Positions 658-45,632 of a DNA stretch of 64,000 bases are shown here, piece by piece (position 1 is the first letter of the stretch; the number at the start of each line of letters is the position of its first letter). The DNA is taken from contig JAFRLH010000007.1 in assembly GCA_017431345.1 (NCBI GenBank), positions 20,746 to 84,745 of the forward strand. Direction: 5' to 3'. Below the pieces are notes generated by a model. That model was not told the DNA's origin. It saw only the letters and a program-made list of their open reading frames with translations, and made no database searches. The DNA is from Lachnospiraceae bacterium. Its GTDB lineage: Bacteria > Bacillota > Clostridia > Lachnospirales > Lachnospiraceae. The position numbers were made by a program, and so were the translations under genes.

Positions 658-687
658 GTTAGACCCCCTTCATATAACAATTGCTGC

Positions 688-11254: not shown

Positions 11255-12790
11255 TCAGAATGCCTCATAAATGAACGACTGCGCTTCGTATCCGGGACCG
11301 TAAACGCCAAAGACCAGGACCGCAGCGAACAGCAGCAGTATGACAGCCCACCGGAATACAAGGTTCTGCCCGGAGAGCTTTTCCCTGACGCTGCCTGTTT
11401 CCTGTATTCCGGAAACGACCAGCAGGATCAGAAAACCGAACAGGAGAACAAAGAAATCCTTCCCGTCCAGTCCGAGCGTGAAAAGAGACCCGTCAAAGAA
11501 CAGTTCGGGATTCCAGTGGGAGAATCCGCGTTTGATCGTGCGCAGAGAGGTAATAAAACCGTTCAGCCGGAAAAACATGTTTCCGATGCTGACCAGGATC
11601 AGTACGCGGAGGGAACACAGAAAATGCCAGCTGAAGCAGTCGGTGCGGATCTGAAAACGGTCGTACAGATCCATGCGGAAAGGTTCGCTGACCTGTTCCC
11701 AGACGATGATCACCCAGAACCAAAGGCCCATTCCGATGATGAATTTCCAGTTGCCGCCATGCCAGAGCCCGATCAGAAGCCATACGCAGAGCATGGCAAG
11801 ATACGTGGGGATCTGCCGGGACGCCTTTTTGCTGAAATGTTTTTTCAGCTTTTTGGGAAGATTGCGGAATGTTTTTGAGCGCAGGATCGGATACAGTACA
11901 TAATCTTTCAGCCACTCTCCGAGGGTGCTGTGCCATCTCTGCCAGTACTCCTGCACCGTCTGGGAGAAAAACGGAGTGCGGAAGTTTTCCGGAAGCGTGA
12001 CGCCGTAGCATTCGGCAGCGCCGATGATAATGTCCATACAGCCGGAAAAATCAGTATAGAGCTGCAGCATGAACAAGACTGCGGCCAGCCATATATACAG
12101 GCCGTTGTATCTGCCGGTATCGGCGTAGATCGTATCCACGATGACGCCGGCTCTGACAGAAATAACAAGCTTCTTGAATACGCCCCACAGCATCCTGAGC
12201 AAGCCGTCAGAGATCCTCTTTGAATCAAAAGCGTGCTCCCCGTAAAGAGAATCCTTTACCTGCGCGTAGCGGGCGATCGGGCCGGATGTAAGCTGGGGAT
12301 AAAAACCGGCAAAGAGCAGCGTTTTCAGCAGTGATCTCTGCGGCGGAGTAATATCCCAGTACACGTCCAGCAGATATCCGGTGACCTGAACAGCGTAAAA
12401 GCTTAATCCGATCGGCGCGGCAAGGTGCAGCTCATGAAGCGGCGGCTTCGCATGGAAAAGGCGCGCGGCCAGGGATATATTCTCGATCAGGAAATTGCTG
12501 TATTTTAGTGCGGCAAGGATGCCGAGATTCACTGCAAGTCCGCAGATCAGAAAACGAAAAGCACGTTTCCCGTCCCCGCGCTGCCTGGAAGCCGCCATCT
12601 GAACTGCGCAGAGATGCGCTGCTGCAGCGCCGGCCAGAAGATAGAGGATCGTCAGCGGATGTCCGGAACACAGGAAAAAAAACACGCTGAACACAAGGAG
12701 CATGCACCATTGCCATGACCGCGGAAGCAGATAATAGATAAATAATGAAATTATAAAGAAACAGAAAAAAGGGAACGATGTTACAGACAT
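11255..12790 (-). CDS. MBOAT family O-acyltransferase (DltB/AlgI-like)
   Basis: A 511-residue polytopic protein with the typical MBOAT marks: PIGLSFYAVQVTGYLLDVYW from about residue 126, QLYTDFSGCMDI around 243-254, WQRWHSTLGEWL with H287, and the catalytic GLWHGGNW with H344. MBOATs such as DltB take an acyl group from a cytoplasmic acyl-carrier protein or CoA and deliver it across the membrane to a surface polymer. The operon supplies an acyl carrier protein (80 residues) and an FkbH-like loading enzyme just upstream, so this is the expected channel for that acyl group. It starts 6 bases after the VOC gene. Confidence 0.92.
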   Translation of the reverse strand: MSVTSFPFFCFFIISLFIYYLLPRSWQWCMLLVFSVFFFLCSGHPLTILYLLAGAAAAHLCAVQMAASRQRGDGKRAFRFLICGLAVNLGILAALKYSNFLIENISLAARLFHAKPPLHELHLAAPIGLSFYAVQVTGYLLDVYWDITPPQRSLLKTLLFAGFYPQLTSGPIARYAQVKDSLYGEHAFDSKRISDGLLRMLWGVFKKLVISVRAGVIVDTIYADTGRYNGLYIWLAAVLFMLQLYTDFSGCMDIIIGAAECYGVTLPENFRTPFFSQTVQEYWQRWHSTLGEWLKDYVLYPILRSKTFRNLPKKLKKHFSKKASRQIPTYLAMLCVWLLIGLWHGGNWKFIIGMGLWFWVIIVWEQVSEPFRMDLYDRFQIRTDCFSWHFLCSLRVLILVSIGNMFFRLNGFITSLRTIKRGFSHWNPELFFDGSLFTLGLDGKDFFVLLFGFLILLVVSGIQETGSVREKLSGQNLVFRWAVILLLFAAVLVFGVYGPGYEAQSFIYEAF

Positions 12791-31575: not shown

Positions 31576-33885
31576 ATGATATCATTGACCGGGTTTCATA
31601 TTAAGATCAGAGGGATCGTGCAGGGCGTCGGCTTTCGTCCTTTTATTCACAGGCAGGTAAAAGCTTACGAAATTAAGGGATGGATCAGAAATACTTCGTT
31701 TGGTGCGGAACTGAAGGTTGAAGGAAGAACTGATAATGTATCTGCTTTTATCAGAGATCTGCGTATCCGGAAACCGCCGCTTGCCGTGATCGAAAAAATT
31801 CACGCAGATGAATATGAACCCTGTGGATTTTCCGATTTTGAAATTATCCCTTCGTTTGCGGGAGAGGAAGCCGATACGCTGATCTCTCCGGATATCTGCA
31901 CGTGTGATGACTGCCTGAAAGAATTGGCGGATCCGTCAGACCGCCGGTACCGCTATCCGTTCATAAACTGTACGAACTGCGGTCCGAGATTTACGATCAT
32001 TAAAAACGTTCCGTACGACAGGAAGAGCACGACCATGGCACCGTTTGTCATGTGCCCGGCGTGCGAAAATGAGTACACGGATATTGAGGACAGAAGATAC
32101 CATGCACAGCCCGACTGCTGCCCGGCATGCGGGCCCCGGCTTTTTTACCGGAATGCAGACGGCAGCTGTATATACGATGAACCGGCCGGGGCTGCCCTGG
32201 AGGCGCTCCGGAAAGGAAAAATCATTGCAGTAAAGGGTCTTGGAGGATTTCATCTTGCCTGCCGGGCAGATACCCCGGCTTTTTCGCATATTCTCAGAGA
32301 GCGGAAGAAGAGAGACAGGAGACCTTTTGCACTGATGTGTGCGGATGCTGCAGCGGTCAGGAAGATCTGCCTGCTGTCCGAAGAAGAGGAGCAGCTGCTT
32401 TCATCCCCTGCCAGACCGATCGTGCTGCTGCGGAAAAGAGAGAAAGCATCCTTCTCACATATCAGTGAGAATGACAGGATCGGGATCATGCTCCCGTATA
32501 CCCCGGTGCATTTCCTGCTGTTTTCGGAAGAGATAAAAACGCTTGTGATGACTAGCGCGAACCTTTCCGACAGGCCTGTCATCTATAAAAATGAAGAAGC
32601 CCTGACGGAACTGTCCGGCATCTGCGACGGTTTTCTGATGCACGACCGGGAAATCGAGGTAAGATGCGATGATTCGGTAATGTGGCCGGAGGACGGCGGC
32701 TATTTCATGAGAAGGTCGAGAGGATATGCTCCCTATCCGGTCACGCTGGAGAGCCCCGTACCGATGATACTGGCCTGCGGGGCCGAGCAGAAAGCGACTT
32801 TTTCGCTGAGCAAGAAAGAGCATGTGTTCCCTTCCCAGCATATCGGCGATCTGAAAAATATTGAATCGTATGAGAATTTCAGACAGCAGATCGTGCACTT
32901 TGAAAAACTGTTTTCCATTAAGCCCGAAGTGATCGCATGCGATCTGCATCCGGATTATCTGTCTTCCGTGTACGCGGAAGAACGCAGCGCAGCGGAAGGG
33001 ATCCCGCTTGTCAGGGTGCAGCACCATCACGCGCATATGGTGTCCTGTATGACAGATAATGACCTGACAGATCCCGTGATCGGGATCATCTGGGACGGTA
33101 CCGGGCTTGGAGAAGACGGCACTGTCTGGGGAGGAGAATTCCTGGCCGGCGATGCTGCCGGCTATGAACGGTACGGAAGCATCAGACCGGTGAAGCTGCC
33201 CGGCGGCGACAGGGCTGTCAAAGAGATCTGGCGCGTTGGACTGTCACTGCTGGAGGATGCTTTTGCACAGGACGGTGATGCAGGAATTTGTGAAGCGGTC
33301 AGGAACCGGATCACGGAAGATGCGGCCGTGCCTGAAACAGGGGCCGGCATCGTCCGGAAAATGCTTGCCGCAGATGTGAACTGTCCGCCGTCTTCCGGTA
33401 TGGGAAGGCTGTTCGATGGCGTGAGCGCGATCCTGGGAATCTGCCGGTCGGCGGATTATGAAGGGGAAGGCGCGATCCTGCTGGAAGCAGCAGCGGAAGA
33501 AGGCTGCGTGCCGGAGTATGAGGCAGGTTTTTACGAAGAAGAAAACGGCGTAAGAAGATTCGACTGGAGACCGATGATCCGGGAACTTGCTTCGGACATT
33601 CTCGCAGATGTACCGGTTTCGTTATGCGCGGCAAAGTTCATGAACACACTGACAGCAGCTGCTGCAGATCAGTGTATTTATATAAGAAGAAAGACCGGTC
33701 TGGATGCGGTCGTCCTGTCGGGCGGGACCTTCCAGAATATGTACCTGCTGAAAGCAGTGACAGAGGCACTGCGGGCGGAAGGGTTTACGGTTTACCATCA
33801 TCACAGGGTAAGCACAAATGATGAAGGACTCAGCCTCGGTCAGCTGATGATCGCTGAGAGGCAGAGGAGAGAGAACAGGGAATGA
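31576..33885 (+). CDS. hypF: HypF carbamoyltransferase, [NiFe] hydrogenase maturation
   Basis: A 769-residue protein with the full HypF order: acylphosphatase domain at 1-92 (IRGIVQGVGFRPFIHR), two zinc-finger units (CDDC..., NCTNCG, CPAC, CCPACG, about 110-185), a YrdC-like domain (about 200-390), and a Kae1/HypF carbamoyl-transfer domain with HHHAHMVSCM near 480. It makes the carbamoyl adduct used to build the CN ligands of the active-site iron. First gene of hypF-hypC-hypD-hypE, with GGGGG ribosome site directly upstream. Confidence 0.96.
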   Translation: MISLTGFHIKIRGIVQGVGFRPFIHRQVKAYEIKGWIRNTSFGAELKVEGRTDNVSAFIRDLRIRKPPLAVIEKIHADEYEPCGFSDFEIIPSFAGEEADTLISPDICTCDDCLKELADPSDRRYRYPFINCTNCGPRFTIIKNVPYDRKSTTMAPFVMCPACENEYTDIEDRRYHAQPDCCPACGPRLFYRNADGSCIYDEPAGAALEALRKGKIIAVKGLGGFHLACRADTPAFSHILRERKKRDRRPFALMCADAAAVRKICLLSEEEEQLLSSPARPIVLLRKREKASFSHISENDRIGIMLPYTPVHFLLFSEEIKTLVMTSANLSDRPVIYKNEEALTELSGICDGFLMHDREIEVRCDDSVMWPEDGGYFMRRSRGYAPYPVTLESPVPMILACGAEQKATFSLSKKEHVFPSQHIGDLKNIESYENFRQQIVHFEKLFSIKPEVIACDLHPDYLSSVYAEERSAAEGIPLVRVQHHHAHMVSCMTDNDLTDPVIGIIWDGTGLGEDGTVWGGEFLAGDAAGYERYGSIRPVKLPGGDRAVKEIWRVGLSLLEDAFAQDGDAGICEAVRNRITEDAAVPETGAGIVRKMLAADVNCPPSSGMGRLFDGVSAILGICRSADYEGEGAILLEAAAEEGCVPEYEAGFYEEENGVRRFDWRPMIRELASDILADVPVSLCAAKFMNTLTAAAADQCIYIRRKTGLDAVVLSGGTFQNMYLLKAVTEALRAEGFTVYHHHRVSTNDEGLSLGQLMIAERQRRENRE

Positions 33886-33940: not shown

Positions 33941-34165
33941 ATGTGTCTGGCGGTACCGCTTAAGATAGAAACCATAGACGGAGATGAAGCAGTCGCAGAG
34001 AGAGACGGCGTGAGACGCCGCATAAAGATCAATCTGCTGAAGGACCCGAAGGTCGGTGACAATGTGATGGTCCATGCAGGATTCGCGATCGAAAAGATCA
34101 GCGACGAACAGGCGCAGGCAGATCTGGAGGCTTTCCGGGAACTGCAGGAGGCGCTTTATGGCTGA
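33941..34165 (+). CDS. hypC: HypC hydrogenase maturation chaperone
   Basis: A 74-residue protein starting MCLAVPLKIE, the invariant HypC N-terminus in which C2 carries the Fe(CN)2CO unit with HypD and then contacts the large subunit. Beta-barrel strands and an acidic C-terminal helix complete the family pattern. It overlaps hypD by 8 bases. Confidence 0.95.
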   Translation: MCLAVPLKIETIDGDEAVAERDGVRRRIKINLLKDPKVGDNVMVHAGFAIEKISDEQAQADLEAFRELQEALYG

Positions 34166-35183
34166 GAAAGTCATTCGTCTGATGGAAGTGTGCGGATCGC
34201 ATACAATGGCGATTGCGAAAGCCGGCATCAAGGGAATGCTCCCGCCTTCCGTGAAGCTGCTCTCGGGACCGGGATGCCCGGTGTGCGTGACTGCGCAGGA
34301 GACGATCGATAAAGCGCTGGCGCTGACAGATCTTCCGGATATGATCCTGACTACCTACGGAGATATGATCCGGGTGCCCGGCAGCAGGCGGGGCGACAAT
34401 CTGGCGGCAAGAAAAGCAGCGGGTGCAGATGTGCGGATCGTTTATTCTCCAATGGATGCCGTACAGACCGCAGCAGAGAATCCGGATAAACAGGTGGTCT
34501 TCCTGGGCGTCGGATTTGAAACGTCAGCCCCGGGAACAGCGTCGGCCATCGCGGCGGCGCAGGATGCGGGACTTGAGAACTTCAGCGTTCTTTCCATGCT
34601 GAAGCTGCTGGAACCGTCGGTCAGGGCACTGGCGGCGGATCCGGAATTCAATATCGACGGATTCATCTGTCCGGGCCATGTGGCCGTGATCATCGGCGAA
34701 GAGGGGATGAAGTTCTTTGAAGAACTTGGTTTCCCGGGCGTGATCACGGGATTTAAAACAGCCGATATCCTGAAGGGGATCGCGATGCTGATCCGGCAGA
34801 TCAAAGACGGGACGGCGATCCTGCAGAATGAATATACTTCCGTTGTCAGACCGGAGGGAAATCCGGTCGCGAGAGAAGAGATCGAAAGAGTCTTTGAAAA
34901 GAGGACAGACCTCTGGAGAGGGCTCGGAGAGATCCCGGAGAGCGGACTCGGGATCAGGGAGGCGTTCGCAAAGTTCGACGCGGAACGCAGATTTGCGGTC
35001 AGTTCCGGAATGTCCCGCGAGAGGCCCGGATGCAGATGCGGCGACGTGATCAGAGGAAAGCTCGATCCGAAGGAATGTCCGCTTTTCGGAAAGGTGTGCG
35101 TGCCGGAAGAGCCGGAAGGACCGTGCATGGTGTCCTCCGAGGGGGCATGCGCGGCGGCGTATAAATACAGAGGGATCATTTGA
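34158..35183 (+). CDS. hypD: HypD hydrogenase maturation protein
   Basis: 341 residues from the ATG at 34158. Conserved motifs are all present: CGSHTMAIAKAGI, GPGCPVCVT, FICPGHVAVIIG, and the C-terminal [4Fe-4S]/redox cysteines in RPGCRCGDVI and ECPLFGKVC. HypD is the scaffold on which, with HypC, the iron receives its CN and CO ligands. It is translationally coupled to hypC, and its stop overlaps the start region of hypE. Confidence 0.96.
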   Translation: MAEKVIRLMEVCGSHTMAIAKAGIKGMLPPSVKLLSGPGCPVCVTAQETIDKALALTDLPDMILTTYGDMIRVPGSRRGDNLAARKAAGADVRIVYSPMDAVQTAAENPDKQVVFLGVGFETSAPGTASAIAAAQDAGLENFSVLSMLKLLEPSVRALAADPEFNIDGFICPGHVAVIIGEEGMKFFEELGFPGVITGFKTADILKGIAMLIRQIKDGTAILQNEYTSVVRPEGNPVAREEIERVFEKRTDLWRGLGEIPESGLGIREAFAKFDAERRFAVSSGMSRERPGCRCGDVIRGKLDPKECPLFGKVCVPEEPEGPCMVSSEGACAAAYKYRGII

Positions 35184-36187
35184 AGATGGAAGAATTTGTA
35201 ACGCTCGACTACGGCAGCGGCGGCGGAAAGACAGCAAAGCTCATTTCCGAAATGATCGTGCCGCTGTTCTCCAATGAAGCGCTGAACGAGCTGTCGGACG
35301 GCGCCGTGGTCGACGGAGCGGACAAAATTGTCATGTCTACGGACAGCTTCGTGGTAAGCCCGGTATTCTTTCCGGGAGGAGATATCGGAAAGCTTTCCGT
35401 GTGCGGCACCGTAAATGACGTCAGCATGGCAGGAGGAGAGATAAAGTATCTGAGCCTGGCCTGCATCCTGGAAGAAGGATTCCCGTTCGCGGATGTAAAA
35501 AAGATCCTGGATTCGATTCAGAGAACCGCCGGGGAAGCCGGGGTAATGGTCGTGACGGGCGATACAAAGGTCGTCGAACGCGGCCGCGGCGACGGGATCT
35601 ATATCAATACCACCGGCGTGGGCGTGCTGAAGACCCCCGGCCTTTCTGTAAAGAATCTCAGAGCCGGAGATAAGATCATCGTTTCCGGACCGGTCGGAGG
35701 CCACGGAACGGCGATCATGCTCGCGCGGAATGCAAATCTCGTGGAAGCAGACGTGAAGAGTGACTGCGCGCCGTTAAAAAGGATGGCGCTGGCGCTCGGC
35801 GAACTGGGAAAGGATCTGAGAGTTATGAGGGATCCGACCAGGGGCGGACTGGCGACCACACTGAACGAATTTATTGAAGATTCGGAATGCGGGATCGAAC
35901 TGAAGGAAGATGCGATCCCGGTAAGACCGGCAGTGAACACTGTGTGCGATATGCTGGGACTGGATCCACTGTATCTGGCGTGCGAAGGCAGGATGATCTG
36001 CGTGACGGCGCCAGAGGCGGAGGAAAGGGCACTGGAGATATTGCGGAGCTTTCCGGAAGGAGAAGGCGCGGTGACGATCGGGGAAGTGACATCTTCGCAT
36101 CCCGGTACGCTGGTGATCCGGACGGCACTCGGGACCGGCAGGATCGCGAATAAGCTGGCCGGAGACCAGCTTCCCAGAATCTGTTGA
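35180..36187 (+). CDS. hypE: HypE carbamoyl dehydratase
   Basis: A 335-residue AIR-synthase-related enzyme: N-terminal DYGSGGGKTAKLI, STDSFVVSP and GDIGKLSVCGTVND, and the hallmark C-terminal PRIC whose terminal cysteine receives the carbamoyl group from HypF and is dehydrated to thiocyanate. The start may be TTG at 35180 (GAGGG five bases upstream, overlapping the hypD stop) or ATG at 35186; two residues differ. Last gene of the hyp cluster before a 364-base gap. Confidence 0.95.
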   Translation: MKMEEFVTLDYGSGGGKTAKLISEMIVPLFSNEALNELSDGAVVDGADKIVMSTDSFVVSPVFFPGGDIGKLSVCGTVNDVSMAGGEIKYLSLACILEEGFPFADVKKILDSIQRTAGEAGVMVVTGDTKVVERGRGDGIYINTTGVGVLKTPGLSVKNLRAGDKIIVSGPVGGHGTAIMLARNANLVEADVKSDCAPLKRMALALGELGKDLRVMRDPTRGGLATTLNEFIEDSECGIELKEDAIPVRPAVNTVCDMLGLDPLYLACEGRMICVTAPEAEERALEILRSFPEGEGAVTIGEVTSSHPGTLVIRTALGTGRIANKLAGDQLPRIC

Positions 36188-36551: not shown

Positions 36552-36935
36552 ATGCAGTATTATAAAAAAATACCCATCACAAAGGATCAGATCGTCCCGA
36601 CCGCAGAACGCATGCGCAAGGACGGCGTGATCCTGGCCATGATCCATGGCTATCTTACGGAAGACGGCAAACCGAACATCTCCTATGAATACATGCTCGG
36701 CGACACCATCGAATCCTACACCATCGAAGGTGAAAATGAGGTACCTTCCATTGCTCCCATCTATTCCAAAGCCGCTGAATGGCCGGAGCGGGAGATCAAC
36801 GAGCTCATCGGCGTCACCTTTACCGGGCTTGACGTCTCACAGCGTCTCTTCCTTCCGGAATCCATGCTTTCCGGGCAGGGCCAGATCTTCGTCACGCCCA
36901 TGGAAGAACTCATCAAGAACACACAAAAACACTAA
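36552..36935 (+). CDS. Membrane-bound hydrogenase NuoC-like subunit (MbhK type)
   Basis: A 127-residue soluble protein. The stretch SKAAEWPEREINELIGVTFTGL matches the family core of NuoC/EchD/MbhK subunits (AEWQERE..DLFG in complex I). It is 18 bases before the large-subunit gene, with AGGAGG upstream of its ATG. The subunit bridges the NiFe large subunit and the peripheral arm. First gene of the fourteen-gene hydrogenase operon. The AT-rich 70 bases upstream may hold a promoter, but no clear hexamer pair stands out. Confidence 0.82.
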   Translation: MQYYKKIPITKDQIVPTAERMRKDGVILAMIHGYLTEDGKPNISYEYMLGDTIESYTIEGENEVPSIAPIYSKAAEWPEREINELIGVTFTGLDVSQRLFLPESMLSGQGQIFVTPMEELIKNTQKH

Positions 36936-36953: not shown

Positions 36954-38036
36954 GTGGGTTATATTGTTCCTATCGGGCCGTATCATCCTTCGCTCGAAGA
37001 GCCGGTGCATGCAAGGCTCTATACGGAGGGTGAACTGATCAAGGACGCGGAGATCTTCATCGGTTACAACCACCGCGGAATCGAGAAGCTGGCCATGCAA
37101 AAGAACATCATCCAGACACTCGTAATGGTCGAACGCGTATGCGGGATCTGCTCCCACTCCCACGCCATGACATTTGCCATGGCGGTCGAGAATGCCGGCG
37201 GCCTCAAGCCGACCAAGAAGGGCGAATACATGCGCGTCATCACCGCGGAGCTGGAGAGACTGCATTCCCATTATCTGTGGCTCGGCATCGCGCTGCACAT
37301 CATCGGCCACGACAGTCTGTTCATGCATTCATGGGACGACCGTGAAGCGATCATGGACATCCTGGAGGATCTCACCGGCAACCGTGTCAATTACGGTATG
37401 GTGACGATCGGCGGCGCAAGACGCGACATTTCCGCCGAGCAGGCGCACAGAACGCTCGAGATGCTCGACAAGATCGAGGAATCCAACAAAGTGCTGTGCG
37501 ACTTCCTGTTAAATGACAAGACCGTGGCGCTCCGTACCCAGGGCGTGGGCATCATGACAACAGAAGAAGCGATAGAACTCGGTGCGATCGGACCGCATGC
37601 AAGAGCTTCGAACGTGCCGATCGACGTAAGGATCGACTCGCCGTATTCCAGCTATGACGATTTCGATTTCCAGAAATGCGTATGGCCGAGCGGCGATGTA
37701 TTCGCCAGAGTGGTAGTCAGAGTGCTCGAGAACTTCGAGAGCATCAAGATCATCCGCCAGGCACTGGATTCCATGCCGTCCGGACCGATCAACAAGGGAA
37801 ATACGATCCCTGTTGTAAAGGCCGGTGAATATATGAACATGCATGAAGCGCCCAGAGGTCAGCTGAGCTATAAGGTGGTCACGAACGGTACTGACAAAGT
37901 ACACCGCGTAAGCATCCATGTTCCCACCTTCAAAAATGCTCCGACCATTCCGACCATGCTCAGAGGAAACTCTGTAGCCGACGCCGGACTGATCATAGCC
38001 AGCATCGATCCCTGCTTCTCATGTATGGACAGATAA
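36954..38036 (+). CDS. Group 4 [NiFe] hydrogenase large subunit (MbhL/EchE-like)
   Basis: 360 residues from a GTG start with AGGAGG nine bases upstream. The NiFe ligands are both present: RVCGICSHSH (C63, C66) and DPCFSCMDR (C354, C357). This distinguishes a real hydrogenase from NuoD and from sulfur reductases lacking one pair. The protein ends at R360, directly after the second motif, so the usual 15-30 residue C-terminal peptide removed by a maturation protease is absent. Similarity to NuoD is seen in HSHYLWLG and in NRVNYGMVTIGG. Catalyses 2H+ + 2e- to H2 with electrons from ferredoxin. Confidence 0.95.
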   Translation: MGYIVPIGPYHPSLEEPVHARLYTEGELIKDAEIFIGYNHRGIEKLAMQKNIIQTLVMVERVCGICSHSHAMTFAMAVENAGGLKPTKKGEYMRVITAELERLHSHYLWLGIALHIIGHDSLFMHSWDDREAIMDILEDLTGNRVNYGMVTIGGARRDISAEQAHRTLEMLDKIEESNKVLCDFLLNDKTVALRTQGVGIMTTEEAIELGAIGPHARASNVPIDVRIDSPYSSYDDFDFQKCVWPSGDVFARVVVRVLENFESIKIIRQALDSMPSGPINKGNTIPVVKAGEYMNMHEAPRGQLSYKVVTNGTDKVHRVSIHVPTFKNAPTIPTMLRGNSVADAGLIIASIDPCFSCMDR

Positions 38037-38378
38037 ATGCATGAACTTGCGATCGTGGAAGGGATACTCGGAGCAGTTATCCCCGAAGCGGAAAAGCACC
38101 AGGTAAAAAAGATACTTCATATCAATATGCGGATAGGGGAATTATCCGGCGTGGTGGAATCCTGCATGCAGGAATACTTCACCATCGCTTCAAAGGGAAC
38201 GATCGCCGAGGGATCAAAACTGATCCTGAAACCATCCCCGATCAGGATCACCTGTCCGGACTGCGGATATGACGGAACCATTCAAAAAGGACAGTATGCC
38301 TGCCCTGACTGCGGCAGCTTCCGGTTCAAAATCATATCAGGCAGGGAATATTATATAGAAAGTATCGAGGCGGAATGA
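38037..38378 (+). CDS. hypA: HypA nickel chaperone
   Basis: A 113-residue protein beginning MHELAIVEGI, where H2 and E3 belong to the Ni site, and carrying a zinc ribbon CPDCGY...CPDCGS near 80-102. It delivers nickel to the hydrogenase large subunit encoded immediately upstream: its ATG follows the large-subunit stop with no gap. Finding it within the structural operon rather than with hypFCDE couples nickel insertion to subunit synthesis. Its GTPase partner HypB is not in this window. Confidence 0.94.
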   Translation: MHELAIVEGILGAVIPEAEKHQVKKILHINMRIGELSGVVESCMQEYFTIASKGTIAEGSKLILKPSPIRITCPDCGYDGTIQKGQYACPDCGSFRFKIISGREYYIESIEAE

Positions 38379-38404
38379 GAAAAATAAATTCAGGAGGTAC
38401 ACCT

Positions 38405-38950
38405 GTGAAAAAATCCGGTTTTTCGACGGTGATATCCACGGCAATACTCTGTTACCTGTTCTGGCTGCTCATTACAGGACAGATCGTACAGATATTCAGG
38501 GGCGGCGCGTCCATACAGGTGCTCATCGCCGGCGTGCTTGTCAGCATTCTGGTCGGAGCATTCTCCGGACGGTTCTTCGTCCACGAATCACCGTTTTATC
38601 TCTGGAACCCCAAGCGGTTCTTCACGTTTTTGATTTACTGCATCTGCATTTTCCCGATCGAGCTCTTTAAGGCAAATGTGGATGTGGCGAAAAGGGCATT
38701 TTCCCCTTCTCTTCCCGTCAATCCCGGCATCGTCAAGATCCCGGTGGACGTGAAGCCCGAATATGCCCAGGCGATGGTTGCGAACTCGATCACGCTGACC
38801 CCCGGCACCATCACGATGGATATCGTGGAGCAGGAGGGCCAGACCTATTACTACATCCACTGGATCGATGTGGCGACGCAGGACGGCAAAGAAGCCGGCG
38901 ACGCCATCAAAGGGACAATGGAACGCTGGATAAGGAGGATATGGGAATAA
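38405..38950 (+). CDS. MrpE/MbhA-like antiporter subunit
   Basis: 181 residues from GTG at 38405, chosen for AGGAGG seven bases upstream rather than an ATG overlapping the hypA stop. Two to three membrane helices at the N-terminus are followed by a soluble domain with NSITLTPGTITMDIV, the conserved MnhE/MrpE phrase. In Mrp antiporters and Mbh hydrogenases this subunit forms part of the Na+/H+-translocating module. Next gene starts within its last codons. Confidence 0.9.
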   Translation: MKKSGFSTVISTAILCYLFWLLITGQIVQIFRGGASIQVLIAGVLVSILVGAFSGRFFVHESPFYLWNPKRFFTFLIYCICIFPIELFKANVDVAKRAFSPSLPVNPGIVKIPVDVKPEYAQAMVANSITLTPGTITMDIVEQEGQTYYYIHWIDVATQDGKEAGDAIKGTMERWIRRIWE

Positions 38951-39207
38951 TCATGGAAGAACTGATCTTTTTCGCGATTTGTTTCATCGTTATGGCTCTC
39001 TGCCTCCTGATCCGCTTTATCATCGGACCTTCGGTCGCGGACAGGGCAGTCGCGGCTGATTCCATCGATATCCTGGCGGATATGGCACTTATCCTTTTTG
39101 CACTTTACAGCGGACGGTCCGTGTTCCTGGATATCGCGTTCATCACCGCGATCCTGGGATTTGTCGGATCCACGATCGTGGCCCGCTATCTGGAGGGAAG
39201 ATTATGA
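38941..39207 (+). CDS. MrpF/MbhB-like antiporter subunit
   Basis: An 88-residue protein with three membrane helices and the family phrase GPSVADRAVAADSID between the first two. It overlaps mrpE by 10 bases and mrpG by 4. The start may be ATG at 38941 (only 2 bases after GGAGG) or the in-frame ATG at 38953 (14 bases after it); neither spacing is ideal. Confidence 0.9.
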   Translation: MGIIMEELIFFAICFIVMALCLLIRFIIGPSVADRAVAADSIDILADMALILFALYSGRSVFLDIAFITAILGFVGSTIVARYLEGRL

Positions 39208-39548
39208 GAATAGCAATAGATGTGTTAATCGTATTCAGTATAATCTTCGCGCTGGCAGGCGTTGTCGGAATGCTCAGGATGCCCGATGCTTACTGCAGGA
39301 TGCAGTCCAGCACGAACATCGCCACGTTCGGTGTTCTCGGCGTCATTATCGGCGGAGCCCTTTACGCCGCATTCATCCTGCATGACGGCGGCATGACCGT
39401 AAAGCTTATCGGGATGGGCGTTTTCTATATCATTACCGTTCCGATCTCCGGACACGCCATCGCGAAGGGCGCTTACCATCACCGCGTGGAAATGGATGAG
39501 AAGACTGTATGCGACGCATACGGAGAGGATATGGTGGAGGAAGAATGA
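39204..39548 (+). CDS. MrpG/MbhC-like antiporter subunit
   Basis: A 114-residue, three-helix membrane protein. GVVGMLRMPDAYCRMQSSTN is the diagnostic MnhG/MrpG motif. Coupled to its neighbours by ATGA overlaps on both sides. Longer C-terminal hydrophilic tail (HHRVEMDEKTVCDAYGE) than many homologues. Confidence 0.92.
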   Translation: MRIAIDVLIVFSIIFALAGVVGMLRMPDAYCRMQSSTNIATFGVLGVIIGGALYAAFILHDGGMTVKLIGMGVFYIITVPISGHAIAKGAYHHRVEMDEKTVCDAYGEDMVEEE

Positions 39549-39802
39549 ACGCAGTATATGTATTAAATACAATAATCGTGGCCGGCATACTGATCTCAGC
39601 CGTCTGCGCTGTAGCGTTCCGGAACACACTTTCTTCCGTGATCGCGCTGGGAGTGACCGGCGCTCTTATGGCGCTCGAGTTCATTCTCCTGCAGGCTCCT
39701 GACGTTGCTATTGCCGAAGCGGCTGTAGGCGCGGTGCTTTCCACTGCGATCTTCGTGATAGCCGTAAAGAAAACGACCCCGAAGGAGGATGAAGAGAAAT
39801 GA
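39545..39802 (+). CDS. MbhD-like subunit (DUF4040)
   Basis: 85 residues from the ATG at 39545, which overlaps the mrpG stop in an ATGA. It corresponds to the N-terminal part of the Mrp A-subunit C-region: ALMALEFILLQAPDVAIAEAAVGA is the characteristic motif of MbhD. Three membrane helices. It overlaps the next gene by 4 bases. Confidence 0.88.
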   Translation: MNAVYVLNTIIVAGILISAVCAVAFRNTLSSVIALGVTGALMALEFILLQAPDVAIAEAAVGAVLSTAIFVIAVKKTTPKEDEEK

Positions 39803-40149
39803 AGAGAGTACTCACCATCATGTCCCTGTTCATCATCCTGGTATGCGGGATCGCAGGCGTAAGATATTCGTATTACAACGGTTCGGTAACTTATAACGGA
39901 AGCGACACCAACGTAGTGGATCTGTATAATAACCCGACATCCTATGATACAGCGAATCCCGACGGCGTCGCCGACATCATTGTAAAAGAGAACCTCGAGA
40001 AGACGATGGCCGCCAACAATGTCGCGGCAGTCGTGTTCGACTTCAGAGGATATGATACCCTTGGCGAATCCTTCATCCTGCTGACGGCCATCGCCGGATC
40101 CTTCGTGATCTTAAGCAGAGTGAAGCATAAAGGAAAGGAGGAAGCCTGA
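39799..40149 (+). CDS. MbhE-like hydrogenase subunit
   Basis: A 116-residue protein with an N-terminal membrane helix (about 5-23), an exposed loop (about 25-85) and a C-terminal helix with DTLGESFILLTAIAGSFVIL, the segment shared with the end of the MrpA C-region and MbhE. Coupled by overlaps to MbhD-like and MrpB-like genes. Confidence 0.82.
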   Translation: MKRVLTIMSLFIILVCGIAGVRYSYYNGSVTYNGSDTNVVDLYNNPTSYDTANPDGVADIIVKENLEKTMAANNVAAVVFDFRGYDTLGESFILLTAIAGSFVILSRVKHKGKEEA

Positions 40150-40622
40150 TGAAATTCAAGGAAGGCATTACCGAGAAGAATATCATCGTAAAGTGCGGCG
40201 CAGATAAATTCCTTCCCTTTGCGGTCACATTCGGCATCTATATCATCATGTTCGGTACCATCAGCCCGGGCGGAGGCTTCCAGGGCGGCGTGATCGTGGC
40301 GTCTGCCGCGCTGCTGCTGTATCTGGGATACGGCTATAACATCGCGCATAAGGCGATCAGTACCGAAGTCTTAAGAGTAAACGAAGCGTGCGGCGCATCG
40401 CTCTATGTCATTCTGGGCCTTCTGGGCATCGCATTCGGCGCGAACTTCTGCCGCAACATATTCTTCAACAACGGAAATGTGGGAGATCTGATCTCCGCCG
40501 GTACCATTACCTTCATGGGATATGCGGTAGGTTACAAGGTGCTCTGCGGCGTCGGCTTCCTGCTCCTTCTGATGCTTGCTCTGCTTGCACCGGATTCAGA
40601 CGAAGAGGAGGGTGAAGCATGA
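40149..40622 (+). CDS. MrpB/MbhF-like antiporter subunit
   Basis: A 157-residue, four-helix membrane protein with FGTISPGGGFQGGVIVASA, the family motif of MnhB/MrpB. Its ATG shares one base with the preceding TGA. Contributes to the ion channel of the Mrp module. Confidence 0.92.
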   Translation: MKFKEGITEKNIIVKCGADKFLPFAVTFGIYIIMFGTISPGGGFQGGVIVASAALLLYLGYGYNIAHKAISTEVLRVNEACGASLYVILGLLGIAFGANFCRNIFFNNGNVGDLISAGTITFMGYAVGYKVLCGVGFLLLLMLALLAPDSDEEEGEA

Positions 40623-40978
40623 TCATAGTCAATTACATCGCATCGATCATCCTGATCGTTCTCGGATTTTACACCGTCTGCACGAAAAAGAACCTGATCA
40701 AGATCGTTCTCGGACTCGGTATCGTGGACTACGGCGTGAACATGCTGATCGTAAGCTTCGGCTTCAACGAAGGCGCGACGGCCCCGATCTATCAGCTCTC
40801 CGATCTGCTGAACGGCGTTTCCCCGCAGTTCTTTGTGGATCCCGTGCCGCAGGCCCTTACGCTGACATCCATCGTTATCGGCGCCTGCGTGGACGCCATG
40901 GCCCTTTCGCTCGTTGTCATGATCAACCGCAAGTACAAGACTGTCAATGCGGATGAAGTAAGGAGGTTGAGAGGATGA
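40619..40978 (+). CDS. MrpC/MbhG-like (NuoK-type) subunit
   Basis: A 119-residue, three-helix protein related to NuoK: GFYTVCTKKNLIKIVLGLGI, and DPVPQALTLTSIVIGACVDA in the third helix. ATGA overlaps with both neighbours. Works with the MrpD-like subunit in ion translocation. Confidence 0.92.
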   Translation: MIIVNYIASIILIVLGFYTVCTKKNLIKIVLGLGIVDYGVNMLIVSFGFNEGATAPIYQLSDLLNGVSPQFFVDPVPQALTLTSIVIGACVDAMALSLVVMINRKYKTVNADEVRRLRG

Positions 40979-42885
40979 TGCAGCATTTTCCCGTACTGGC
41001 TGTAATGCTGCTGTTCCTGGCAGCTTTCCTTGTCGAGATCTTCGGATCGAAGAGCAAAGTGATCAGGAACGGCCTTACGCTTCTCGCCACCACGAACGCA
41101 CTGGTCATGACGCTTGCGCTGATCGGACCGGTGATGATGAACGGCGAGGTCATTTCGTACTGGATGGGCAGCTGGGCGCCCGTGTCCGGCTATGCCATCG
41201 GTATCGGTTATGAAGTGGATGCGCTCAGCCTGTTCTTCGGTATTCTCGTTACCGCGACATTCTGGCTCTCAAGCATCTATTCCATCGGTTACATGAATAA
41301 GGATCACCATCTGGGACATTACTATACGCTGTTCCTGATGCTGTCCGGTTCCGTTCTCGGTCTTGTGTACACAGGCGATATCTTCAACCTGTTCGTCATG
41401 GTCGAGATCATGACATTTGCTTCCGTAGCGCTCACTGCATTCAGGAATGAGAGCGAAGGCGCGCTGGAAGCGGCATTCAAATATCTGGTCATCGGTTCCG
41501 TCGGATCATCCTCCGTGCTGGCCGGCGTGGCGCTTCTGTATTCCCAGTGCCATACGCTGAACATGGCGCAGCTCGCTTCGATCCTTTCAGGCGGACTGAC
41601 CCCTACCTCTGTTGTTGCGTTCGGTCTGATCGTAGCCGGCTTCGGCGTAAAGAGCTATATCGTACCGTTCCATACGCCTGCAGCTGACGCATACGCAGTA
41701 GCGCCTACCTCGATCTCCATGGTATTCTCCGGCATGGTCAACAAAGCCGGCGTTTACGGCATGATCCGTATGGTCTACATCGTATTCAGAGCCATGGATC
41801 ACAGCTCTGTGCAGATGCTGCTTGCCATCTTCGGTGCCGTCACAATGTTCGTCGGCGTCACGATGGCTCTTACCCAGCATGAGTTCAAGAGACTGCTCGC
41901 GTTCCACTCCATTTCCCAGATCGGCTATGTGATCACGGCCATCAGCCTGGGAAGCGCGCTGGGACTGACCGGCGGCCTGTTCCATGCCATGAACCATACG
42001 CTGTTCAAGGGACTGCTGTTCCTGTGCGCAGGCGCTGTTCTGTACCGCACCGGCACCACGAACCTTGACAAGCTCGGCGGCCTTTCCAAAAAGATGCCGC
42101 AGACAACAATCTGCTTCCTGATCGGCGCGGGCGCCATCTCCGGCCTGCCGCCTTTCAACGGCTTTGCTTCCAAGTGGATCATCTATCAGGGGATCTTCAC
42201 AAAGGCTGTCACAAGCGGAAACTTCCTGTATGTTCTCATTACCGTCACAGCCCTGATCGTATCCGTCATGACGCTGGCTTCCTTCATCAAGGTCACCCAG
42301 GCCGTCTTCTTCGGACAGCTGAGAGAAGAGCACAATGAGGTAAAAGAAGTACCTGCAGTGATGCTGTTCCCTATGTACATCATGGCGGCGCTCTGCGTGG
42401 TATGCGGCGTTGTATATCCGCTCGTGAACAAATACCTGCTCTTCCCGGCAGCGAACGCTTCCCTGAATGTCGGTGATTATATCGACAAGATGATGGGCGC
42501 GGGCTATGCCGAGGCATCAGGGGTTTCCTCCATGCTGGTCGAGCCGGTAACGTTCTCCTTCTGGGATCCCATGGTCTGGCTGCTGCTGTTCGGCATCGTA
42601 TTCATCGCCGCTGCGATCGTGATCCTGCTGGGGACCAACGAGCGCGGAAAGGTGCTCACATCCGGCGGAACGCCCGAAGCGAAGTATGCGACCTTCTTCT
42701 CCGGTGAAGAGGAACTGTTCTCTCATGTAGGCGGCTCGGATCTGTTCTGGGGCTTCAAGAAGAACTGGAAGGGATACTACAGGGTATTCACCGATCTTCA
42801 TTCGGGTATCGTAACTGACTACACATCCTATACGGTCATCGCGGAAGCGATCATCGTTATGTGCCTGTTCATATTCATGCGTTAA
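40975..42885 (+). CDS. MrpD/MbhH-like (NuoN/NuoM-type) ion-translocating subunit
   Basis: A 636-residue, about 14-16-helix protein of the proton-conducting transporter family. Recognisable are the glutamate in NLFVMVEIMTF, the lysine in GFGVKSYIVPFH, the HSISQIGY histidine segment, and the lysine in NHTLFKGLLF. The last about 100 residues extend beyond the NuoN core and end in another membrane helix. Overlaps MrpC-like by 4 bases. It is the main ion pump of the complex. Confidence 0.93.
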   Translation: MMQHFPVLAVMLLFLAAFLVEIFGSKSKVIRNGLTLLATTNALVMTLALIGPVMMNGEVISYWMGSWAPVSGYAIGIGYEVDALSLFFGILVTATFWLSSIYSIGYMNKDHHLGHYYTLFLMLSGSVLGLVYTGDIFNLFVMVEIMTFASVALTAFRNESEGALEAAFKYLVIGSVGSSSVLAGVALLYSQCHTLNMAQLASILSGGLTPTSVVAFGLIVAGFGVKSYIVPFHTPAADAYAVAPTSISMVFSGMVNKAGVYGMIRMVYIVFRAMDHSSVQMLLAIFGAVTMFVGVTMALTQHEFKRLLAFHSISQIGYVITAISLGSALGLTGGLFHAMNHTLFKGLLFLCAGAVLYRTGTTNLDKLGGLSKKMPQTTICFLIGAGAISGLPPFNGFASKWIIYQGIFTKAVTSGNFLYVLITVTALIVSVMTLASFIKVTQAVFFGQLREEHNEVKEVPAVMLFPMYIMAALCVVCGVVYPLVNKYLLFPAANASLNVGDYIDKMMGAGYAEASGVSSMLVEPVTFSFWDPMVWLLLFGIVFIAAAIVILLGTNERGKVLTSGGTPEAKYATFFSGEEELFSHVGGSDLFWGFKKNWKGYYRVFTDLHSGIVTDYTSYTVIAEAIIVMCLFIFMR

Positions 42886-42901: not shown

Positions 42902-43852
42902 ATGCAAATCTTAATGACTCTGTTTAAAATTCTGATCTTCCCCGGCGCACTGTTCACCGCCTGTGTGGGACTGTTCCTGGCGGGCATTGACAGAAAGGTG
43001 ATCGCGCATATGCAGAAGCGTATCGGACCGCCGATCCGTCAGCCCATGTATGATTTCTTCAAACTCATGGGCAAGGAGACGATCGTTCCGGCAAGAGCCA
43101 ACAAGCTGGTGTTCCTCGGAGCGCCGATTGCCGGATTTGTAAGCCTTGCGATCGTCATGCTCTTTATCCCGATCTTCGGTTTCACCGCATTTTCGGGAAC
43201 GGCCGACCTGATCGTTATCCTGTATTTCCTTACGATCGGCGGCGTTGCCCTGATCGTGGGCGGATCCTCTTCCGGATCTCCTTATGCGGGGATCGGTATC
43301 TCCCGTGAGATGGTGACGATGATGAGTTATGAGCTGCCCTTCGTACTGGTACTGCTCTCTGTGGCAAGGAAAGTCGGCGGCTCCACGCTTGCCTTCTCCA
43401 TGAACCAGATCGCGGATTATCAGGCAGCCAACGGAAGCCTGCTGTTCTCCTGGAGTATGATCCCGGCTGCCATCGCACTGCTGCTGATCATCCCCGCGGA
43501 AGTCGGCATGCAGCCTTTCGATGTGGCTGAAGCGGAAACGGAAATCTGCGAAGGCCCCCTGATCGAGTATTCAGGCGCCGCGCTCGGTATGTTCAAACTC
43601 AATACGGCTATGAAGATGTGCATCATGACAGGCCTGTTCACCTCCCTGTTCCTGGGCGGCATCAGGACCGGCACTGTGGTATGCGATGCGATCATCTTTG
43701 TCGCTGTCTGCGCAGTGGTAACACTGGTCTGCATCACGACGATTCACGCTGTTACTGCCAGACTGAAGATCGAGCATCTGTTCAGATTCTACTGGACTGT
43801 TGTTGCAGGGCTTGCGCTTTCAAGCCTGATCCTGGTCTGGATGGGACTGTAA
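42902..43852 (+). CDS. NuoH/MbhM-like membrane anchor subunit
   Basis: A 316-residue, eight-helix protein. DRKVIAHMQKRIGPPIRQP is the quinone-site/loop signature of NuoH-type subunits, and EVGMQPFDVAEAETEICEGP the second. It ties the hydrogenase arm to the antiporter module. The stop overlaps the ribosome site of the small-subunit gene. Confidence 0.94.
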   Translation: MQILMTLFKILIFPGALFTACVGLFLAGIDRKVIAHMQKRIGPPIRQPMYDFFKLMGKETIVPARANKLVFLGAPIAGFVSLAIVMLFIPIFGFTAFSGTADLIVILYFLTIGGVALIVGGSSSGSPYAGIGISREMVTMMSYELPFVLVLLSVARKVGGSTLAFSMNQIADYQAANGSLLFSWSMIPAAIALLLIIPAEVGMQPFDVAEAETEICEGPLIEYSGAALGMFKLNTAMKMCIMTGLFTSLFLGGIRTGTVVCDAIIFVAVCAVVTLVCITTIHAVTARLKIEHLFRFYWTVVAGLALSSLILVWMGL

Positions 43853-43864
43853 GGAGGTATGGGA

Positions 43865-44311
43865 ATGTTTAAAAAACTGATCGATAAAAGCGCATCCAAA
43901 TCTCCCTGGCTGTATCATATCAACACAGGCTCCTGCAACGGCTGTGATATCGAGCTCGTAGCCTGCCTGACGCCCAGATATGACGCCGAACGTTTCGGCT
44001 TCAAGCTGGCAGGCTCTCCCAGACATGCGGATATCGTTGTGATCTCGGGCCCCGTGACTTCCCAGTCGAGAGACCGTCTGGTAAGAACGATCGCCCAGGT
44101 GCCGGAACCGAAGTGTGTTGTCACCATCGGTTCGTGCCCGCAGTCCGGCAACGTATTCAAGGGAAGCTACTCGGTAGAAGCACCTGTTGAGAATTTTGTG
44201 CATGTGGATGTCGCCGTGGCCGGCTGCACCCCCAAGCCTGAAGCCATCATGGAAGGGCTGTATACGGCAGCCCTGATCCTGAAAAAGAAGAGGGAGGCGA
44301 TGCACAAATGA
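43865..44311 (+). CDS. Group 4 [NiFe] hydrogenase small subunit (NuoB/MbhJ-like)
   Basis: 148 residues from the ATG at 43865, seven bases after AAGGAGG; an ATG at 43859 abuts the site and is too close. It binds the proximal [4Fe-4S] cluster through GSCNGCD, then GSCPQSGN and AGCTPKPE cysteines. Compact as in Ech, Mbh and NuoB, lacking the medial/distal cluster domain of standard uptake hydrogenases. The stop overlaps the polyferredoxin start. Confidence 0.94.
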   Translation: MFKKLIDKSASKSPWLYHINTGSCNGCDIELVACLTPRYDAERFGFKLAGSPRHADIVVISGPVTSQSRDRLVRTIAQVPEPKCVVTIGSCPQSGNVFKGSYSVEAPVENFVHVDVAVAGCTPKPEAIMEGLYTAALILKKKREAMHK

Positions 44312-45519
44312 TGTTCCCTTATCTGAAAACAGCCCTGACGAATCTTTTCAGACCGGCCAGCACGGAGGTCTTTCCGAATCCCGCTGCGGAAGGTCTTGGA
44401 AAATACAGAGGAAGGATCGCGTTCAATCCCGAATCCTGTGTGGACTGCGGCATGTGCATTAAAGTCTGTTCGCCCGACGCCATTACCCGTACGGCGGTGA
44501 AAGTGGAAGGCGGAGAGAATGTCACAAGGAGTTTTGATCTTACTTCCTGCACATTCTGCGGAACCTGCGCGGATTTCTGTGAAGAAGGCTCGATCCAGAT
44601 GACGAAGGATTACCACATGGTGGCTGAAAATGCAGCCGACCTGGTGGTATCCGGTGTTACCTTCAAGAAAGAGATCGCCGGACATATTTTCTGCGACCTG
44701 TCCGGATGTATCTTCTGCGGACTCTGCGCAAAGAACTGCCCGGAGAAGACCATTACGGTCGACCGCAAGACCAAGACCTGGCGCATCAATTACGAGCACT
44801 GCATCAAGTGCGGAAAATGTATCGACAAGTGCCCGAAGAAGATCCTTTCCTTCTCGGAAGAAGAGATGGTCTATCCGGAGCCTGCGGCTGCGCCTGAGGC
44901 AGCAGCAGGAGCAGCGGCAGCTGCAAAGCCTGCAGCGCCGAAGAAGCCTGCAAAGCCGAAGAATCCGCCGCAGTATACGGAAGGCGGAGACGACCAGCTC
45001 GTATGTGATATTGCGAACTGCATCTATTGCGGGATCTGCAAGAAGAACTGCCCTGCGGAAGCGCTTACCGTTGACCGCAAGGAAAAGGTCTGGAAAGTCG
45101 ATCACGACGCCTGTATCGGCTGCGGACTGTGCATAGACAACTGCCCGAAGAAGGTGCTGAGCTTCGGTGTGCCGGCTGAAGGCGAAGCGGAAGAAGCAGC
45201 GGCAGCGCCTGCTGCCGCGGAAGCTGCGCCGGCTGAGAAAGCCGCACCCGCCGCGGAGGCGAAGCCCGCGGAGGCGGCGGCTGCCGCACCGGCGGAGCCC
45301 GAAGGGCCGCCGCCGGAGTATTCCGAAGCGGAATACGGCCAGCTCGTCTGTCATCTGAAAGACTGCATCTACTGCGGCATCTGTGCGAAGAACTGCCCGA
45401 TGGATGCGCTGACGGTGGACCGCAAGACGAAGACCTGGAAGGTCGATTATGACAAGTGCGTGATGTGCGCGATCTGCAATGACAAGTGCCCGAAGCATGC
45501 ACTGGATTTTAAAGGCTGA
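44308..45519 (+). CDS. Polyferredoxin with eight [4Fe-4S] motifs (extended MbhN/NuoI-like subunit)
   Basis: A 403-residue protein. Residues 1-120 resemble the NuoI/MbhN subunit with two CxxCxxCxxxC motifs (C44-C54, C81-C91). Three repeats of a two-cluster ferredoxin follow: C134-C144 and C165-C175; C238-C248 and C269-C279; C353-C363 and C384-C394. Each repeat contains the phrase TVDRK-x-K-x-W between its clusters and one extra cysteine five residues before the first motif (C129, C233, C348). Ala/Pro/Lys- and Ala/Pro/Glu-rich linkers (about 190-228 and 288-340) separate them. Known MbhN subunits are near 140 residues with two clusters. The extra domains may be a tethered electron wire or docking arms for soluble ferredoxin (inference). 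Last gene of the operon, followed by a terminator. Confidence 0.93.
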   Translation: MMFPYLKTALTNLFRPASTEVFPNPAAEGLGKYRGRIAFNPESCVDCGMCIKVCSPDAITRTAVKVEGGENVTRSFDLTSCTFCGTCADFCEEGSIQMTKDYHMVAENAADLVVSGVTFKKEIAGHIFCDLSGCIFCGLCAKNCPEKTITVDRKTKTWRINYEHCIKCGKCIDKCPKKILSFSEEEMVYPEPAAAPEAAAGAAAAAKPAAPKKPAKPKNPPQYTEGGDDQLVCDIANCIYCGICKKNCPAEALTVDRKEKVWKVDHDACIGCGLCIDNCPKKVLSFGVPAEGEAEEAAAAPAAAEAAPAEKAAPAAEAKPAEAAAAAPAEPEGPPPEYSEAEYGQLVCHLKDCIYCGICAKNCPMDALTVDRKTKTWKVDYDKCVMCAICNDKCPKHALDFKG

Positions 45520-45541
45520 TCATTAACAGCCGGATTTTCTG

Positions 45542-45570
45542 ACAGCCCTGCGTAAAGCAGGGCTGTTTTT
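45542..45570 (+). terminator. Terminator of the hydrogenase operon
   Basis: Stem ACAGCCCTGC/GCAGGGCTGT with loop GTAAA followed by TTTTT. Confidence 0.93.
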
Positions 45571-45632
45571 ATGCCATGGAAAGTCCGGCACAGAAAGACA
45601 GGAAAACGCACCTCAATAAGTATCCGATGCGG

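Follow-up and report, generated by a model that had tools for sequence, protein, structure and literature searches.

The gene studied here, at positions 44308 to 45519 of the window (the whole stretch of 64,000 nucleotides of Lachnospiraceae DNA that was analysed), closes a series of 13 Mbh-type subunit genes and overlaps the end of the MbhJ-like gene before it. HypF, HypD, and HypE genes stand ahead of the subunit genes. These begin with the K-like and L-like ones; HypA separates the pair from the A- to H-like genes, MbhD and MbhE among them, and the M-, J-, and N-like genes follow.

31576 to 33885, forward strand: HypF
34074 to 36187, forward strand: HypD and HypE, the latter named by its AIRS domains and its place
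36552 to 36935, forward strand: MbhK-like subunit (NuoC family)
36954 to 38036, forward strand: MbhL-like catalytic large subunit, whose translation carries RVCGIC close to its N terminus and DPCFSC at its C terminus
38037 to 38378, forward strand: HypA, nickel metallochaperone
38375 to 38950, forward strand: MbhA-like subunit (MnhE family)
38941 to 39207, forward strand: MbhB-like subunit (MrpF family)
39204 to 39548, forward strand: MbhC-like subunit (MnhG family)
39509 to 39802, forward strand: MbhD (PF13244)
39799 to 40149, forward strand: MbhE (PF20501, 27.6 bits, barely above the cut-off of 27)
40149 to 40622, forward strand: MbhF-like subunit (MnhB family)
40619 to 40978, forward strand: MbhG-like subunit (MnhC/NuoK family)
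40975 to 42885, forward strand: MbhH-like antiporter-type subunit
42902 to 43852, forward strand: MbhM-like membrane subunit (NuoH family)
43859 to 44311, forward strand: MbhJ-like small subunit (NuoB family)
44308 to 45519, forward strand: polyferredoxin subunit of 403 amino acids, an MbhN-like core with three dicluster ferredoxin modules
45541 to 45571, forward strand: terminator-like hairpin (11 pairs) and then a T run, 21 bases past the stop codon (–21.9 kcal/mol, z –6.45)

The operon is that of an Mbh-type [NiFe] hydrogenase with a Mrp-like membrane module that includes both MbhD and MbhE. The RVCGIC and DPCFSC pairs of the large subunit, which we take to be the ligands of the NiFe metal site, are both kept. 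The hairpin and T run so close behind the stop codon indicate that the polyferredoxin gene closes the operon, and this hairpin was not among the matches of a consensus terminator scan.

The polyferredoxin subunit divides as follows.

44308 to 44691, forward strand: two-cluster core of MbhN/NuoI type, its motifs at residues 44 and 81, and a constant stretch behind it
44692 to 44865, forward strand: module 1, about residues 129–186, at a fixed distance from the core
44866 to 44991, forward strand: linker 1, Ala/Pro-rich, about residues 187–228, predicted to be disordered (AlphaFold)
45004 to 45171, forward strand: module 2, about residues 233–288
45172 to 45336, forward strand: linker 2, Ala/Pro/Glu-rich, about residues 289–343, predicted to be disordered (AlphaFold), net charge –11
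45349 to 45516, forward strand: module 3, about residues 348–403, C-terminal

Eight CxxCxxCxxxC motifs begin at residues 44, 81, 134, 165, 238, 269, 353, and 384, the first two in the N-terminal core and the other six as pairs in three repeats. Pfam ferredoxin domains run along the whole protein (Fer4, 2e-40), residues 7–115 match the NuoI family, and residues 3–109 align with residues 4–105 of the 139-residue MbhN of Pyrococcus furiosus (PDB 6cfw_N, E 7.2e-10). A reading of this DNA made from the sequence only had proposed an MbhN-like core and eight [4Fe-4S] motifs, and both the motif count and the alignment with 6cfw_N agree with it. The subunit is thus not an MbhN with two clusters only, as the core is present together with six further motifs. 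A Foldseek search with the whole model gave domain-level matches only; those of the core were to a formate hydrogenlyase subunit (7z0s_F) and complex I chains. The three repeats, likewise claimed beforehand, were 57–61% identical to one another over 56 residues, and each carried TVDRK....W. Additional cysteines stand at residues 129, 233, and 348. The window genome is a draft assembly with 5.14% contamination. A near-copy of the protein (99% identical) in a second genome of the genus (G003), together with the recurrence of the layout in many separate genomes, argues that the arrangement is neither chance nor an assembly fault.

Other names for the protein were considered and set aside. The NCBIfam names PorD_KorD, FdxA_fam, EFR1, and HgcB had whole-protein scores above cut-off but were not accepted, because these scores sum several ferredoxin domains. 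RnfB was rejected because the match lacked its N-terminal part: the best stretch covered positions 143–262 of the 265 in the RnfB model NF041836, whereas four RnfB proteins (names confirmed with TIGR01944 in 4 of 4) matched from positions 4–10 on. The RnfB equivalog cut-offs provided no test, as three of those four proteins fail all of them.

An AlphaFold model of the protein, computed from an alignment of 50 rows taken from 69 proteins, suggested how these parts are joined. Ten-residue means of pLDDT were 78–95 for residues 31–190 and 84–95 for the second and third repeats, and fell to 40–57 at residues 191–230 and 291–340, which correspond to the two Ala/Pro-rich linkers. Values below 50 covered residues 197–222 and 224–226 in linker 1 and most of residues 291–327 in linker 2, and the pTM of 0.46 was as for beads on a string. 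Alanine and proline together make up 53% of linker 1 (about residues 186–228) and 64% of linker 2 (289–343). The model thus has four ferredoxin units, and it bears out the earlier suggestion that two repeats hang on Ala/Pro linkers. Tethering does not extend to all of the repeats, as module 1 lies 40–43 residues from the core in every member of the group of relatives to which the window protein belongs, and the model placed no disordered gap between the two. As far as structure prediction goes, the arrangement is the lipoyl-type one of a folded carrier on a flexible Ala/Pro linker. In the model of a six-motif relative with short joints (L068), by contrast, no stretch of three or more residues had pLDDT below 50 and pTM was 0.60, and the disordered linkers of the window protein and the ordered joints of this relative therefore point to two kinds of joint. 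Dividing the 120 joints of the survey described below into short and long ones, a split that we set ourselves, gave 60 short joints of few lengths (7–9 or 28–31 residues after trimming) and 60 longer ones of 26–103 residues, overall 25% Ala and 17% Pro.

Species genomes were scanned with an MbhJ alignment; 299 relatives were confirmed, and the best 80 of these 299 were surveyed. Most come from metagenome-assembled genomes, with titles that point to the rumen or gut and to Lachnospiraceae, Oscillospiraceae, or Ruminococcaceae. In all 80, MbhJ is followed by a gene with ferredoxin motifs; this gene is complete in 69, and the 11 that run off the contig were dropped. In one of the 69 (L125), the polyferredoxin gene is out of frame past its third motif, through a true frameshift or through faulty assembly of the repeats, and its removal left 68 complete relatives or, with the window protein, 69 rows and 120 extra modules. 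Certain contigs appear both as a named locus and as a numbered genome (L063 and G241, for example), so that our surveys overlap. The search for added repeats in MbhN homologues, which had been suggested as a check, found them to be common: among the complete relatives drawn from the best 80 loci, 60 of 68 have between one and six extra modules and 8 have none. Two motifs were counted in 8 proteins, 4 in 26, 6 in 18, 8 in 11, 10 in 4, and 14 in 1; no protein of the 68 had an odd number, and no half module was seen among the 120. These counts start from the cysteine pattern, and a cysteine-free module signature gave 117 matches for the 120 modules, falling one short in each of L071, L095, and L099 and in excess in none. 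The hairpin Trp is present in 120 of 120 modules, VDR in 115, and a 21-residue spacing in 116. An upstream cysteine occurs at –5 in 28 modules and at –4 in 23 and is absent from the remaining 69. The extra cysteine noted in the sequence-only reading is thus real at all three places in the window protein but does not hold as a general feature, and we rejected it as a special ligand. Seven two-cluster relatives (L113, L114, L116, L128, L137, L142, and L144) have an Ala-rich tail without a module, as if linkers had preceded modules or outlasted them.

Among 11 genomes of the window's genus, several of which are incomplete, Mbh was found in 4, where the extra modules number three, three, four, and one. 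Across the family, in 299 genomes of as many genera, an MbhJ relative was found in 39 and a close one (E 2.2e-72 or better) in 8. Five of these eight close loci have 8, 14, 8, 6, and 6 motifs, one is cut at a contig end, and two have 2 motifs and an Ala-rich tail. Four more close MbhJ loci, each with 2 motifs, came from 391 genomes of the class, and 20 more distant loci came from 398 genomes of the phylum; at 9 of these 20 the fetched stretch contained a ferredoxin gene, always with 2 motifs, and at the other 11 it contained none. The two-motif forms of the wider class and phylum, set against these multi-motif loci, mark the expansion as particular to some gut Clostridia.

A tree built from MbhJ and the core (69 rows) requires at least 19 changes in module number but a single change between none and any. 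The eight module-less rows form one group with moderate support (87/90) that lies between two module-bearing groups; as the tree is unrooted, this placement is compatible with gain and with loss alike. The distance from the core to the first module is 40–43 residues in one group, which includes the window protein, and 61–115 residues in the other, a difference that two independent additions would explain. We rejected recent tandem duplication inside each gene as the source of the modules, since a sibling was the closest relative of only 8 of 90 equal-length modules, with 5 ties; modules 3–6 of L063 are among the 8. In pairwise comparisons, not all of them independent in that some share a member and some have high dS, dN/dS was 0.04–0.36 for modules and 0–0.22 for cores (12 pairs) and 0.04–0.42 for linkers (11 pairs). 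The modules are under purifying selection, with dN/dS well below 1 in 12 of 12 pairs. Apart from one in a core, all unaligned codons in these pairs fell in linkers, and linkers therefore differ mainly by changes in length.

Among the dicluster proteins compared, EchF-like proteins are the closest profile match of the modules. A profile built from 109 distinct modules and scored as median bits of the best domain gave 71.8 for EchF-like proteins of the family (19 of 19) and 73.5 for those of other families of the class (15 of 15), although in 3 of these 34 the best-scoring domain may itself be an extra module. The corresponding medians were 42 for RnfB (n = 4), 38 for soluble ferredoxins (n = 14), 26 for other ferredoxin-domain proteins (n = 9), and 19.5 for the MbhN cores (n = 69). 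No NCBIfam model names EchF, so the name was given by gene order in L053 and by place and likeness at the remaining loci. In L053 the genes run NuoL-, NuoH-, NuoB-, NuoC-, NuoD/NiFe-, and ferredoxin-type, which is the order of Ech. A tree of 56 columns, for which 30 modules out of 120 and 12 cores out of 69 were used, placed the EchF-like cores in a clade of their own and left the modules scattered and not joined with them, and so lends no support to a descent of the modules from EchF. Extra modules also occur in three of the 19 family EchF-like loci examined (31 were found), namely L044, L048, and L054, which have 4, 4, and 6 motifs; in the same tree, three of their four extra modules fell among MbhN modules and one beside soluble ferredoxin. 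Several other EchF-like genes of the family have long Ala/Lys-rich tails without clusters, and all 15 that were examined from other families of the class are two-motif proteins.

Modules and soluble ferredoxins also differ in charge. Net charge, a crude proxy for docking that leaves the clusters out, averaged +2.1 for the modules (range –5 to +7) and was above zero in 107 of 120; it was 0 to +5 for EchF-like cores (n = 19) and averaged –2.9 for MbhN cores (n = 69). Stand-alone ferredoxins of 14 Mbh genomes averaged –8.0 (range –10 to –5), and those of the 8 among these genomes that have modules were at –8 to –10. The window modules carry +6, +1, and +3, and the ferredoxin of the same genome (L234) carries –10. 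Four of the 120 modules are at –2 or below (module 2 of L063 and module 4, the last, of L085, L086, and L087), and they are the same four that have a short, soluble-ferredoxin-like spacing. By charge and spacing these four look like captive soluble ferredoxins, and module 4 of L087 sits beside soluble ferredoxin in the 56-column tree.

Each of these elements has precedent elsewhere. MbhN of P. furiosus (6cfw chain N) has the homologous two-cluster core in the same kind of complex but has no added modules, whereas the window protein is far longer at 403 residues. EchF of clostridial Ech hydrogenases shares with the modules the hairpin and the basic charge but is normally a single two-cluster domain, and the window modules sit on a different core. 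Polyferredoxins likewise serve hydrogenases in methanogens, with 6 clusters in EhaP, 10 in EhaQ, 12 in MvhB, and 14 in EhbK according to excerpts of PMC3087415, and MvhB (9sw6_G) is the best PDB sequence match of the window protein. The Eha, Ehb, and MvhB proteins are described in those excerpts as separate proteins, whereas the polyferredoxin of the window is fused to an MbhN core and has Ala/Pro linkers. RnfB is another polyferredoxin for ferredoxin input with a mobile ferredoxin-like domain: in excerpts of the respective papers, a mobile Lys/Arg-rich C-terminal region of the Acetobacterium woodii protein is suggested to act as a "fishing hook" for ferredoxin (PMC11889175), and a swinging ferredoxin domain is proposed for that of Clostridium tetanomorphum (PMC9588780). 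The four RnfB proteins that we compared have a cysteine four residues before one motif, as do 23 modules, but RnfB belongs to another complex, has a transmembrane anchor and no NiFe site, and reaches only 42 bits with the module profile. We know of no Ala/Pro tethers in FwdF of formylmethanofuran dehydrogenase. In its layout of eight [4Fe-4S] clusters in four ferredoxin units (5t5i; excerpt of PMC12517254), FwdF resembles the window protein, and it is described as a wire within a large complex.

For the combination of such modules with an MbhN core, we found no precedent among the open-access matches listed. Titles and abstract openings among these matches gave no description of added modules on MbhN or EchF, and the excerpts available of a paper on termite-gut [NiFe] hydrogenases (PMC7886697) and of an Rnf review (PMC12174285) contain nothing on such modules. 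The earlier remark that no Mbh subunit of this kind has been described therefore stands among the open-access matches listed. For 62 genomes of rumen butyrivibrios, the part available of one study gives complete Ech in 47 and no MbhLKJ (PMC4478896), and a rumen survey, again as excerpted, calls group 4g hydrogenases functionally unresolved and places them among the highest expression ratios (PMC6776011).

We propose, at what we regard as an even chance of being right, that the window protein is an MbhN-type electron-input subunit enlarged by EchF-like modules into a multi-headed ferredoxin landing pad. EchF-like two-cluster modules would have been added serially, with the first fixed to the core and the other two held by flexible Ala/Pro tethers. 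The basic modules would catch reduced, acidic soluble ferredoxin over a wide radius, for example from pyruvate:ferredoxin oxidoreductase (PFOR), and electrons would hop from a tethered module to fixed module 1, on to the core clusters, to MbhJ, and to the NiFe site, where H2 would be formed while ions are pumped. The modules, the linkers, their recurrence, the purifying selection, the charge contrast, and the likeness to EchF all emerged directly from the computations. From the sequences we infer that the modules bind clusters and dock ferredoxin, and likewise the route of hopping and the direction of flow. PFOR scored above cut-off in 14 of 15 Mbh genomes, with weaker matches in 10 of 14 control genomes, and soluble ferredoxin did so in 14 of 15, with weaker matches in 9 of 14 controls.

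The sequence-only reading had instead seen an arm that collects electrons from several oxidoreductases. In its strict form, tethered modules would replace soluble ferredoxin, becoming reduced at several oxidoreductases and swinging back in the manner of lipoyl domains. Ala/Pro-rich linkers of 26–103 residues at half of the joints, modules that fold as self-contained dicluster units in the AlphaFold model, the presence of PFOR, and the four acidic ferredoxin-like modules, as expected of a captive carrier, are all consistent with such an arm. We nevertheless consider it unlikely: the other half of the joints are short and of few lengths, soluble ferredoxin is retained, and in their 21-residue spacing (116/120), VDR hairpin (115/120), and basic charge (107/120) the modules are unlike the ferredoxins of these genomes. 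Because most modules have the basic charge and EchF likeness of an acceptor, and a soluble acidic ferredoxin is kept in 14 of the 15 genomes, ferredoxin capture is the simpler reading. The EchF-like profile scores, the predominance of basic modules, and the acidic ferredoxins thus led us to prefer the landing pad to the collecting arm. Several observations count against the landing pad as well. Linker 2 of the window protein, at net –11, would repel ferredoxin; a captive carrier would better account for this linker and for the four acidic modules; and 8 of 68 relatives manage without any module.

Two further explanations address the variable number of modules. The extra clusters could act as a capacitor that smooths a single-electron supply to the two-electron H2 site, and the frequent changes in module number (at least 19 on the tree of 69 rows), as might be seen in a dose-like trait, and the fact that modules are always whole would suit such a store. 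A store would need neither a basic surface nor long tethers, yet both recur, and we regard this explanation as improbable. Nearly neutral accretion, in which recombination of GC-rich linkers and repeats yields additional modules that have no role yet are tolerated, would also account for frequent copy-number change and for linkers that differ between near-identical genomes, and in three pairs (L117 with L119, L120, and L127) module dN/dS does exceed linker dN/dS. We think accretion of this kind very improbable, given that half-decayed modules were not found among the 120 and that module dN/dS is well below 1 in every one of the 12 pairs.

Extending the landing-pad proposal beyond this locus is more speculative. 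Tentatively, gut and rumen Clostridia might carry a tunable ferredoxin antenna, made of EchF-like modules tethered flexibly to the input subunits of both Mbh and Ech, with copy number fitted by evolution to electron supply and with captive acidic ferredoxins in some proteins (L063 and L085–L087) acting as shuttles inside the complex. Module number showed no usable pattern against other electron sinks among the 15 Mbh genomes, a small sample in which RnfC is above cut-off in 5 and [FeFe] hydrogenase in 14. Methane formation draws on the H2 of the rumen, and many of these hydrogenases belong to rumen bacteria; should the tethered modules govern the rate of H2 formation or the ferredoxin threshold, module number would be a readable knob on H2 flux. 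The landing pad, if true, would clearly exemplify an ion-pumping enzyme gaining its own electron antenna by domain addition, and natural variants with 0 to 6 modules on one core offer a structure-function series.

The window and its genome contain additional features of note. An RnfC-like protein of the same genome (L220) has an Ala/Glu/Lys-rich tail behind its clusters, and in a 589-residue frame, also of this genome (L224, positions 188–1954, reverse strand), an iron-containing alcohol dehydrogenase (PF00465) is fused with four ferredoxin motifs. In the window itself, a 924-residue frame at 688–3462 (reverse strand) has an N-terminal match to the 60 kDa inner membrane protein family (PF02096), positions 11255–12790 encode an MBOAT acyltransferase, and a gene at 5746–7752 (reverse strand) combines a PEP mutase domain with a cytidylyltransferase-like domain, a hint of phosphonate chemistry.
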